A stretch of DNA of 64,000 nt, taken from assembly GCA_025936825.1 (NCBI GenBank), contig JAICSO010000009.1, forward strand, positions 124,001-188,000. The letters are read 5' to 3'. The position numbers and the translations under genes are program-made. Source of the stretch: Terriglobales bacterium (GTDB taxonomy: Bacteria > Acidobacteriota > Terriglobia > Terriglobales > Acidobacteriaceae). The notes below the pieces were generated by a model, which searched no databases, was not told the origin of the DNA, and saw only the letters and a program-made list of their open reading frames with translations. Below are positions 11,340-62,728 of this stretch, piece after piece. Position 1 is the stretch's first letter. Each line of letters starts with the position of its first letter.

Positions 11340-11498
11340 GGTGGCCTTACCTATGGTAAAAGCTCGCTGCTGGACGGCTGTATATCGCAAAGAGGAAGCG
11401 GAATCAGCATCGACATCAGTCGCAATGAGATTCAGATACCTTCACCACAGAGGACACGAAGGGACACAAAGGAACGCCGAGAGGAAGATTGCAGGGTC

Positions 11499-14641: not shown

Positions 14642-14682
14642 TGTGGGGTGCCCCATGTCTCGCGGTGTTCGAGACATGGGCG
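14642..14682. repeat. Hairpin element CCCATGTCTCG-CGGTGTT-CGAGACATGGG flanked by GGGGTGCCCC
   Basis: Perfect 11-bp stem, 7-nt loop; the minus strand reads stem then GGGGCACCCC. Confidence 0.75.
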
Positions 14683-59034: not shown

Positions 59035-61131
59035 TTACAGGCCAAACCACTGCTCGACCACGTTCAAATCGGTTGAGCGACGATAATTCGGGAGGCTGTC
59101 GACGAATATCCGGCCGTATTGTTTTTTAAGAATTCTGTTATCGAGTAGGGCGACCAAACCGCGGTCGTGTAGCGAGCGGATGAGCCGACCGAAGCCTTGT
59201 TTCAATGTAATGACTGCCGCCGGCACCTGATAGTCGAAGAAGGCGTTCCCGCCGTTGGAGTCGATTGCCTTAACTCGTGCCGCAACCACGGGGTCAGACG
59301 GCACCGCAAACGGCAGTCGGTCGATGATGACGCAGCTGAGTTGCTCGCCTTGCACGTCCACCCCTTGCCAGAACGATGAAGTCGCAAACAGGACGCAGTG
59401 CGGCGTGGCGCGGAATTCCTCGAGCAGCGCGCTTTTCGGGGCGTCACCCTGGAGGAGCATCGGAAACTCGATCTCGCCGAGCAATCGCTGGTAGATGTCC
59501 CGCATTTGCGCGTAGCTGGTGAACAGGACGAACGCGCGACCACGAGTTATCTCCAGGAGTTTGCGAATGCGTTCTGCAGCCTTCGATGCAAACTGGGGAG
59601 TACGAGGATCGGGAAGGTCTGGCGGAACGTAAAACAGTGCCTGATTTTGATAATCAAAGTGCGAGGGAAGAACTACGTCCCGAGCATGATCCACGCCCAG
59701 CCGGCTGCGGATGTAGTCGAAGGCGCCTCCCACCGCCAGTGTCGCGGAAGTCAGAATGGCGGTATCAAGCTTGGACCACAGAGCCTCGCGCAGTACGGGC
59801 CCAACATCGATCGGCGTAGCTTGCAATGAGACGTGCTGCTTTTCGCGACCTGCACGACGGCGCTCAATCCAGAAAACGGTGTTGGGATCCTCGTGCTCGA
59901 GAACCAAGCCGAGTTGGCCGTGCAATTCCTGGGCGCGGCGCGCGAACGAGAAGGCCTCTTCTGGTTTCGAAGGCATGTTTTCGATCTCTGACGCAATACG
60001 CACCAGCGACTGCTGTACCGCGAGGAACTCGTCTCCGTTTTCTTCCAGGAACTCGTGGCGATTCTCGAAAGCGAAACGACTATCGCCTTCGGGCAGCAGG
60101 GAAAAGAAAAACGCTGAACGCTCGCGCAGAGTCTTAATCGCGCCAGAAAATGAAGCTGTGTAGTTGTGATTTCGCTGAAGGAAGTTTTCGATATCGCGGC
60201 AAAGTTCTTCAAACCGCGCGGCGCTGACCGAAATCCCGAAGTAGCTCCCGGCAACATCTTCGAGTTCATGTGCTTCATCGAAAATTACGACCGCAGCGTC
60301 GGGGAGAATACCGGCATCAGGCGCGCCTTCGGCCTGTTGCTTGATTCCGAGATCGGCAAAGAACAAATGGTGATTGACAATGACGATGTCACTCTCGAGC
60401 GCGCGGCGGCGCATTTCGGTAATGAAGCACTTGTCCCATGAACTGCACTTCTGGCCGGTGCAGGTGTCGGCGCGTGCGTCCAACTTGTGCCAAAGGGCAC
60501 TTGCTTCCGGCAGATCGGCAAGTTCGGCGCGGTCTCCGGTTTGTGTGGTTTGTTCCCAGGCAGCGATAGCACGATACTGCTCAATCTCATCCAGGCCATT
60601 CAGAACTGGCTGCTCCGTGAGTTCGTAAAGTTTCCTGCGGCAGAGATAGTTGTTGCGTCCTTTCATGTAGCAGACGCTGAGAGCGCGATTGCCATCGGGG
60701 AACAGTGCCTTCTCAAGAAAAGGGACATCTTTGTAAAACAGTTGCTCCTGCAGGTTCTTGGTGCCGGTAGAAATGATCACGCGCTTGCCGGAGCGAATCG
60801 CCGGCATCAGATAAGCGAGAGTTTTGCCGGTACCGGTGCCCGCTTCCACGATCAAGTGGCGCCGTTCTTCGATGGCTTGCCCCACCGCCTGCGCCATCTG
60901 CAACTGTCCACGGCGGAATTCGTAGGCGGGATGCGTTTGCGAGAGCAGTCCGCCGGGAGAGAAGAAGTTATAAAGCGAAATCGTGCCACCCGGTGCGGCG
61001 GAACTGGCGGGCTGAAAACTCGAGGACACAGAGTCTCTATAGTAATCTGAGAGGTTGAAGTAGCACAGACCATCGGCGGACGTGCCGCCTTCACCCGTCC
61101 CATCGAGCAAAGCTCGACGTGTAAGATTCAT
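59035..61131 (-). CDS. dinG: DinG-family ATP-dependent DNA helicase
   Basis: VEAGTGTGKTLAYLMPA; CYMKGRNNYLCRRK...CTGQKCSSWDKC (FeS-type Cys); VIFDEAHELEDVAG; GFGRLIRSLHDRGLVALLDNR. Exact start uncertain. Confidence 0.92.
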   Translation of the reverse strand: MNLTRRALLDGTGEGGTSADGLCYFNLSDYYRDSVSSSFQPASSAAPGGTISLYNFFSPGGLLSQTHPAYEFRRGQLQMAQAVGQAIEERRHLIVEAGTGTGKTLAYLMPAIRSGKRVIISTGTKNLQEQLFYKDVPFLEKALFPDGNRALSVCYMKGRNNYLCRRKLYELTEQPVLNGLDEIEQYRAIAAWEQTTQTGDRAELADLPEASALWHKLDARADTCTGQKCSSWDKCFITEMRRRALESDIVIVNHHLFFADLGIKQQAEGAPDAGILPDAAVVIFDEAHELEDVAGSYFGISVSAARFEELCRDIENFLQRNHNYTASFSGAIKTLRERSAFFFSLLPEGDSRFAFENRHEFLEENGDEFLAVQQSLVRIASEIENMPSKPEEAFSFARRAQELHGQLGLVLEHEDPNTVFWIERRRAGREKQHVSLQATPIDVGPVLREALWSKLDTAILTSATLAVGGAFDYIRSRLGVDHARDVVLPSHFDYQNQALFYVPPDLPDPRTPQFASKAAERIRKLLEITRGRAFVLFTSYAQMRDIYQRLLGEIEFPMLLQGDAPKSALLEEFRATPHCVLFATSSFWQGVDVQGEQLSCVIIDRLPFAVPSDPVVAARVKAIDSNGGNAFFDYQVPAAVITLKQGFGRLIRSLHDRGLVALLDNRILKKQYGRIFVDSLPNYRRSTDLNVVEQWFGL

Positions 61132-62728
61132 GCCCAAACTTCCGCTCATCGCAATTGTTGGCCGGCCGAATGTCGGCAAATCCACGCTGTTCAATCGGCT
61201 GGTCGGATCGCGGCGCGCCATTGTGGGCGACGAACCAGGTATCACGCGCGACCGCCTCTACGGTGAGGCGCATTGGGCAGGATACGACTTCCGCGTGGTC
61301 GACACTGGGGGAATCATTCCTGAAGAAAAAGATCTGATTCCCTCTGAAATCTTTCGCCAGGCACGCGTAGCTCTGGATGAGGCCGCGCTTATCGCAATGG
61401 TTGTTGATGGACGGACTGAACTAGCCGGCCCCGATATCGAACTGGCCCGACTGCTGCGGAAGGCAGGGAAGCCGCTGTTCCTGGCCGTGAACAAAGTTGA
61501 TTCCGTGAAACAGGAAGGGATAGCCGACGACTTTCATCGTCTGGGAATTCGCGACATCTTCCCGGTCTCCGCCGAACATGGGCGCGGCGTGGATGAATTA
61601 CTGGACGCGGTGATTGCTGAACTGAAGGCAAGAAAGATTCTCACCACGGAGGCCAGAGGGGCCACAGAGGAACTCGCGACGACTGAGGAGGCGCAGGTCA
61701 ACTCAACATTGAAATCAAAATTTCCACCCTCCCGCAGAGGACGCGGGAAGGGTGGGGCACCCTCAAATTCTTTTTCGACCAACGACCAATCACCAACGGC
61801 GGATGACGATTTTGCGCACGACGCACAACGTGCGACGCACGACGATTTCGCCGACTACGAACCACCAACGACGAACGACGAGGATGTCTCCGAAATCCGA
61901 GTCGCCATCATCGGCCATCCGAATGTGGGGAAGTCGACCCTCTTAAATCAGCTGACCGGCTCCGAGCGCGCAATTGTTTCTCCAATTCCTGGCACGACAC
62001 GCGATGCCGTAGACGAGATCGTCGAGCGTGGCGGCAAAACATTCCGCTTCATCGACACGGCCGGCATTCGGCGCAAGGGCAAGACGCACCTTATGGCGGA
62101 GAAGCTCTCGGTGGTGATGTCGCGCAAGCATCTCGAGTCCGCAGACATCGCGTTGCTGACGATCGACGCCACCGAAGGCGTGAGCGCGCTCGATGCCGCG
62201 ATTGCCGGTTACGCGCACGAGAGCGGAAGGTCGGTCATCATCGTGGTGAACAAGTGGGACCTGGTGATCCGCGGAGAAAAAAGGGCAATCAGCCAGTCCC
62301 GAGCGGCACGAATTCAGGAGTACAAGCGAGCTGGCGATCGGGCTGCTTATGAGCAACGCCTGCGCTATGCGCTCAAGTTTCTGAGTTACGCTCCGGTTGT
62401 TTTTATCTCAGCAGCCACCGGAAAAGGTGTAGAAAAGATATTTCCTTTGTTAGAGGAAGTCGCATCTGAGCGGCGCAAGCGCATCACCACCGGCGAGATG
62501 AACCGTTTCTTGAAGCATGTTGATTTTGATCGCGCAGCGGTACCAGTCCGCCAGCGGGTAAAAATTTTGTATCTGACGCAAGCCGCTGTTGCTCCGCCAA
62601 CGTTCGTGTTGTTCACAGACCGGCAGGTCAAACTGCACTTTTCCTACGAAAGGTTTTTGGAGAATCAGATTCGCCGCGCGTTTGGCTTCGTGGGCACGCC
62701 GATTTGGATTAAGGTGCGGGCAAGGTAA
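61130..62728 (+). CDS. der: Ribosome biogenesis GTPase Der (EngA) with enlarged inter-GTPase linker
   Basis: Two G domains (GRPNVGKSTLFNRL, GHPNVGKSTLLNQL) plus KH-like C-terminus; ~85-aa low-complexity linker between them. Confidence 0.96.
   Translation: MPKLPLIAIVGRPNVGKSTLFNRLVGSRRAIVGDEPGITRDRLYGEAHWAGYDFRVVDTGGIIPEEKDLIPSEIFRQARVALDEAALIAMVVDGRTELAGPDIELARLLRKAGKPLFLAVNKVDSVKQEGIADDFHRLGIRDIFPVSAEHGRGVDELLDAVIAELKARKILTTEARGATEELATTEEAQVNSTLKSKFPPSRRGRGKGGAPSNSFSTNDQSPTADDDFAHDAQRATHDDFADYEPPTTNDEDVSEIRVAIIGHPNVGKSTLLNQLTGSERAIVSPIPGTTRDAVDEIVERGGKTFRFIDTAGIRRKGKTHLMAEKLSVVMSRKHLESADIALLTIDATEGVSALDAAIAGYAHESGRSVIIVVNKWDLVIRGEKRAISQSRAARIQEYKRAGDRAAYEQRLRYALKFLSYAPVVFISAATGKGVEKIFPLLEEVASERRKRITTGEMNRFLKHVDFDRAAVPVRQRVKILYLTQAAVAPPTFVLFTDRQVKLHFSYERFLENQIRRAFGFVGTPIWIKVRAR

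Follow-up and report, generated by a model that had tools for sequence, protein, structure and literature searches.

Repeat DNA of three families in frame in the interdomain linker of Der from a Terriglobales bacterium

The interdomain linker of Der (EngA) in this Terriglobales bacterium was found to be composed of three blocks (A, B and C), which are all in frame and all have other copies in the genome. The most likely reading is that mobile or expanding repeats are tolerated in frame in protein linkers and loops and are kept there as disordered protein. The blocks lie in a window of 64,000 nucleotides, the whole stretch of DNA that was analysed; the genome itself comprises 6.54 Mb in 141 contigs, and a search of the linker DNA against it matched 46 places. 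The features of the gene and its linker are given below.

61130..62728, plus strand: der/engA gene, host of the repeats (TIGR03594, Pfam domains, AlphaFold)
61640..61687, plus strand: block A, a single arm from a palindromic, MITE-like repeat (TTCACCACAGAGGACACAGAG... type), encoding LTTEARGATEELATTE (genome matches, local alignment)
61702..61769, plus strand: block B, a REP-like hairpin with a GGGGCACCC tail, encoding about KSKFPPSRRGRGKGGAPSNS (2 Mb sample match, genome copies)
61786..61881, plus strand: block C, a CGACGCA-type array set between CGACCAA-type heptamer arrays, encoding STNDQSPTADDDFAHDAQRATHDDFADYEPPTTNDE (2 Mb sample match, genome copies)
61658..61885, plus strand: predicted disordered part of the linker, residues 176-251 of the model (pLDDT below 50)

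The product of 61130-62728 was identified as Der, an essential GTPase of ribosome assembly, by a profile search (TIGR03594, E 1e-150, 502.6 bits against a cut-off of 306.7, residues 4-529), and the equivalog criterion is met by two tandem GTPase domains (MMR_HSR1 twice) and a C-terminal KH_dom-like domain. When Der is aligned with B. subtilis EngA (2hjg), the alignment of GTPase domain 1 ends at residue 163 (query 164) and resumes with a second segment at residue 167 (query 244); from these breakpoints the linker, which spans ~85-90 aa, is ~75-80 residues longer than in the B. subtilis protein. The AlphaFold model predicts the linker to be disordered, with pLDDT of 34-37 at residues 176-251 where the folded domains are mostly at ~90. 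Its codon score of 0.076, compared with 0.20 and 0.17 for the Der domains, places the linker in the lowest 7% of gene windows. The divergent neighbour of der (59035-61131, minus strand) was observed to be a YoaA-type DNA repair helicase gene (NF053712, E 2e-226), the start of which lies near or overlaps that of der.

Block A belongs to a family of palindromic repeats, a further arm of which lies elsewhere in the window.

11441..11472, plus strand: other A repeat arm, with 1 mismatch to TTCACCACNGAGGNCACNGAGG

Residues 61640-61661 of the DNA are of this same repeat type (two hits in the window against 0.01 expected), and genome-wide the A core ACCACNGAGGNCACNGAGG gave 143 matches at ≤2 mismatches compared with 4 for the reversed pattern. 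A good share of the A copies are arms of a palindrome of ~75-160 bases (AAACCTTCACCACAGAGG...CCTCTGTGGTGAGGTTT), where arms were paired within 250 bp as plus then minus in 19/70 and as minus then plus in 8/42. The family meets the MITE criterion of terminal inverted arms in a short, non-coding, multicopy element; it is termed MITE-like, and no junctions or cognate transposase were examined. Der holds a single, diverged arm of the palindrome (E 1.6e-4 in the 2 Mb sample). This arm was aligned locally with three full A elements: two of them gave a score of 17, where shuffles reached at most 14 and 13, and the third scored within the shuffle range. A local array of seven A-type arms in direct orientation with ~68 bp spacing was also noticed on contig C34 (518349-518787), which differs from the inverted A pairs found elsewhere.

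The hairpin block of Der (61712-61769) matches the B consensus with E 8e-14 in the 2 Mb sample and is 92% identical over 49 bases to the copy at C34:488492. The B hairpins fall into several stem subfamilies, many of them with stems of their own, so that the common part is mainly the GGGGCACCC tail (GGGTGCCCC on the other strand). B fulfils two of the criteria for REPs: one, for which the reversed control gave 0, asks for a short imperfect palindrome (20-40 bp) that is present many times, and the other asks for an association with RAYT/Y1 transposases, as B subfamilies flank three Y1_Tnp genes on both sides. The third, a terminal GTAG or CGTC tag, was not met in the B copies inspected, where the conserved tail is found, and B is therefore named REP-like only; nor was a GTAG-type RAYT subfamily assigned to the Y1_Tnp genes.

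14651..14681 of the window, minus strand: other B-type hairpin, CCCATGTCTCG subfamily with a GGGGCACCC tail (hairpin scan, reversed control 0)
C83:2080-2403 and C65:90264-90542: Y1_Tnp genes with B copies on both sides
C108:30070: third Y1_Tnp gene, flanked by the CCCATGTCTCG subfamily of B

The stem of the hairpin at 14651-14681 is the one that flanks the third of these genes. Inverted B doublets with ~22-29 bp between the copies were observed as well. Movement of B by Y1/RAYT-type transposases is inferred. Because it contains a bulge, the hairpin in Der escapes a search for ungapped hairpins.

Block C matches its family with E 9e-8 in the 2 Mb sample, and 61786-61881 is 80-97% identical to other genome copies over 32-74 bases. 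The heptamer pattern gave 89 matches in the genome against 1 for the control. In one frame the C consensus translates as QRPTTNDDFAHDVRRTT, for which the Der counterpart is SPTADDDFAHDAQRATHDD; the consensus sequences of A, B and C are each open in all three forward frames. The initial annotation had placed three noncoding-like blocks in frame in this linker, had likened the first to the repeat at 11441-11472, had described the others as a hairpin and an ACGAC/CCAAC quasi-tandem sequence, and had called the ~85-aa linker disordered. The positions and frame of the blocks held, as did the resemblance of the first and the nature of the other two, both of which are multicopy in the genome; the disorder held as a prediction.

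The placement of the copies was determined in a sample of 1.98 Mb (~30% of the genome), consisting of contigs C140, C34, part of C65 and the window, with gene calls from a home-made gene caller. Reversed queries of A, B and C gave zero matches in this sample.

A: 42 places, of which 39 intergenic, 2 at gene 3' ends and 1 internal (Der)
B: 18 places, of which 11 intergenic, 6 internal and 1 C-terminal
C: 26 places, of which 19 intergenic, 6 internal and 1 C-terminal

Since the coding share is ~85% and genic copies are few, all three families are clearly scarce in genes, which is the pattern expected if most hits in genes get lost. One rival explanation is that the linker was copied whole from a ready-made intergenic A-B-C composite. 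In its favour, the Der linkers of two genomes, G000 and G004, have the three blocks side by side in a common order. Against it, the 2 Mb sample contains no further case of A with B, A with C or B with C at a distance of up to 200 bp; only in the Der linker do A, B and C come that close there, and hence no uptake of a ready-made composite is indicated. Furthermore, relatives carry A alone (G016 and G018), C alone (G013) or B with C (G002) in their linkers. We regard this rival as very improbable.

In-frame copies were not restricted to Der. In AlaRS, an in-frame B copy occupies residues 762-776 and separates the editing domain from the DHHA1 domain; others lie in GlyRS alpha (residues 248-265), a UbiD-type menaquinone decarboxylase (about residues 214-231), an agmatine-deiminase-like protein and a type I phosphodiesterase. 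Copies of C were found in frame in an ATP-dependent DNA ligase, in a DnaE2-type polymerase and in a protein that resembles cysteine desulfurases. These host proteins are otherwise recognisable and full-length. Outside the sample, repeat-like segments were observed in three further proteins.

L004:831-2810 (contig C97), plus strand: DnaG primase, C-type array in frame at ~residues 209-241 (NHVVGRTWHAANDDSRTTHDVGRTTL region)
L006:1-2001 (contig C68), minus strand: MnmG, C-type array in frame at ~residues 146-170
L160:831-2246 (contig C32), minus strand: RarA-like AAA ATPase with the insert TTDDVRRATAQRTEEGGAPSSSS

The RarA-like insert unites C-like and B-tail-like sequence and is a second case of stacking. 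STQHSALS segments in MnmG resemble a further, AGCACTCAGC-type repeat, and the same was noticed near the DnaG insert. With Der, AlaRS, GlyQ, UbiD, ligase, DnaE2, DnaG, MnmG and RarA, the criterion of in-frame insertion in unrelated conserved genes, as known for Rickettsia palindromic elements (RPEs), is met. According to ortholog alignments, eight genomes have the AlaRS insert (PTLSQKTRKDGAPS type) at a shared position, where G005, G006, G018 and G025 have a short site; they also show related hairpins at one site of GlyQ and of UbiD in several genomes, the B stem in GlyQ of G002 being decayed. Genomic B matches number 1 in G005 and 0 in G006, where no recognisable insert was seen in AlaRS, GlyQ or UbiD.

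The Der linker is hypervariable across the family (20-104 aa). Most members have 20-56 aa, and four members of the genus (G000, G002, G003 and G004) have 67-104 aa with unrelated sequences. The linker of G004 contains A, B and C, that of G002 B and C, and that of G003 a C-like sequence, while an exact A core is present in G016 and G018 and C in G013 and G025. The named relatives are Candidatus Sulfotelmatobacter and Acidobacteriaceae MAGs, several of which also have C (L169, L170, L171 and L180), with A too in L171 and L180. Where linkers match the A and C consensus, they do so in a single orientation. Mapped onto a tree built from the Der domains, A requires ≥5 changes and so does C; both therefore come and go in linkers. 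The occurrence of C in the linker follows its genomic abundance, as it was found in 6/14 C-rich and 0/16 C-poor genomes (Fisher 0.005). Strong A matches (≤2 mismatches, a threshold set post hoc) were found in the linkers of 4/13 A-rich and 0/17 A-poor genomes (one-sided 0.026). The abundance tests, the Fisher value included, carry no correction for relatedness.

A second rival is chance or convergence, where acidic, Pro/Thr/Asp-rich linkers together with codon usage would mimic A and C without shared origin. It is supported by the observation that linkers without clear repeats are acidic too, and by weak A-like matches (3-4 mismatches) in A-poor genomes; a loose test of A in linkers against the genomic A count was not significant (0.62). 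Against it, codon-shuffled linkers never reached the A match in G000, G004, G016 and G018, nor the C match in G000, G002-G004, G013 and G025 (p 0.005 in each case, the lowest value that the test can return). Moreover, amino-acid composition cannot explain the B hairpin and its tail (E about 1e-13), and C in linkers tracks the genomic C content. Block B and the copies across the genome largely refute chance, which can hardly be upheld as a general explanation but stays possible for the weak A-like matches in distant linkers. Chance resemblance and the ready-made composite were both considered and then rejected.

Neither of the two outcomes that the initial annotation named as refuting it was observed: the linker is not conserved as protein across relatives, and none of the blocks lacks other genome copies. 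Its interpretation is supported in that, because the linker is variable and the blocks are multicopy, repeat DNA can be taken to serve in frame as protein sequence. Exaptation in the strict sense would need a gained function, of which there is no demonstration. The data can be explained by a spacer that is merely tolerated, and no function beyond that of a spacer has been shown.

In the tolerance reading, the Der linker would have arisen by three separate in-frame insertions or expansions, of an A palindrome arm, a B REP-like hairpin and a C array, from families that are otherwise mainly intergenic and whose elements would land genome-wide. Copies that break the frame or the fold would be lost, and in-frame, stop-free copies in flexible linkers or surface loops would be tolerated, their translation giving hydrophilic, disordered sequence. 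In this reading, the Der hinge that joins the GTPase domains is very permissive and has gathered all three repeats. The same process would have brought B or C into AlaRS, GlyRS-alpha, DnaG, MnmG, RarA, DNA ligase, DnaE2 and the UbiD-type decarboxylase. The sequences show directly that the blocks are there, in frame and multicopy, that linkers vary and turn over, and that C in linkers accompanies a high genomic C content; near-neutrality and actual translation are inferences, with no transcript or protein evidence. No target-site duplication or exact empty site was found, so that insertion rather than local slippage is unproven for C.

Repeat DNA in frame in genes is already known from the RPEs and from intragenic REPs. 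RPEs (Ogata et al. 2000, 2002; reviewed in PMC10969869) are palindromes in frame in Rickettsia genes, and the common point is that short palindromic repeats lie in frame in unrelated conserved coding genes and are translated as extra segments. The likeness is one of mode only, as no RPE sequences were compared. RPEs are ~150 bp long and occur in Rickettsia, whereas the acidobacterial linker stacks members of three families without relation to each other, namely a REP-like hairpin of 50-60 bp, a MITE-like arm and a heptamer array. Intragenic GTAG/CGTC REPs, including copies in DnaE2, DNA ligase and tRNA synthetases, were described by Di Nocera et al. 2013 (PMC3733652), who suggest linkers and loops as tolerant sites and report transposase association. 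They share with B the REP-type hairpins within ORFs, the overlap with host genes and the transposase association, but B has no GTAG or CGTC tag, and A and C are not REPs. The same paper describes acidobacterial Y1 transposase genes flanked by terminal repeats, and its relevant passages report no intragenic copies in Acidobacteria. As in the REP/RAYT (REPtron) and TIRYT systems, B hairpins flank Y1_Tnp genes, are scattered genome-wide and form inverted doublets; they differ in the tag and in their subfamily-specific stems with mainly the tail in common, and transposition of B remains an inference. The intragenic ERIC/RU elements of enterobacteria (Delihas 2007, PMC2759123) are likewise MITE-like repeats with open frames found within genes, but they belong to a single family and are of greater length (103-168 bp).

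No earlier report for Acidobacteria was found in the open-access literature searched, which covers open papers only and is not proof. What is new is the acidobacterial setting, the stacking of three families in one essential linker and a maintained coding hairpin. The origin of new protein sequence from repeat DNA, known so far mainly from Rickettsia and from scattered intragenic REPs, is seen here in essential genes of a common soil phylum. The family has both filled and short sites, its copies range from near-exact to decayed, and its repeats are of three unrelated types; because of this variety, gain, loss, frame choice and the fate of coding hairpins become testable. For annotation, odd acidobacterial peptides such as LTTEDTEDTEE, PTLSQKTRKDGAPS and QRPTTND can be repeat-derived.

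One observation speaks against pure tolerance, as the shared AlaRS hairpin is better kept than a purely decaying insert would be. Covariation was counted on AlaRS orthologues only, since alignment of the B subfamily sequences fails to align the stems. In the eight AlaRS hairpins 97.9% of cells are paired, with double changes at 4/12 pairs, whereas slid versions of the stem are only 28-55% paired. The covariation score was 0.304 compared with 0.093 for shuffled data and was reached by 0/500 shuffles, which do not preserve relatedness. At one pair, a first-position change in a Ser/Pro/Ala codon is offset by the synonymous third position of an Arg codon in the other arm. RPE copies are reported to lose repeat identity over time in a study of coding palindromes in nematomorph mitochondria (PMC6649704); unlike these, the AlaRS hairpin keeps its pairing.

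A third rival is that intragenic B hairpins are kept for an RNA or DNA role, such as tuning translation or co-translational folding of AlaRS, GlyRS and Der, and are not merely tolerated. The retained AlaRS stem with covariation above the shuffles and the matched Ser/Pro/Ala and Arg positions favour it, as does the finding that genic B copies in the sample are 7/7 in the same orientation to the gene, a further locus (L022) seeming to hold one copy in the opposite orientation. Against it, template-switch correction or renewal by other B copies would yield compensatory pairs without selection, only eight related sequences are available, the AlaRS site is empty in the four genomes named above and some stems are decayed, as in GlyQ of G002. 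Selection on the hairpin, template-switch correction of the quasi-palindrome and renewal from other copies are each possible sources of the compensatory pairs and cannot be separated. We consider the hairpin role unlikely. The same doubt applies to a bolder reading, in which active maintenance of the nucleic acid itself preserves intragenic REP-like hairpins across genera in essential genes of Acidobacteria, most of all in alaS; if it were true, a mobile-element family would be a shared structural or regulatory mark in translation and replication genes while the encoded peptide drifts.

Two further observations concern AlaRS. In G004 (L321) a 54-aa insert between the editing and DHHA1 domains holds two B hairpins, one of which is the shared AlaRS copy. 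In addition, AlaRS alignments break at residue 413-415 in many relatives, with an open frame of up to 1031 aa, and another variable insert site might be present at ~residue 413.
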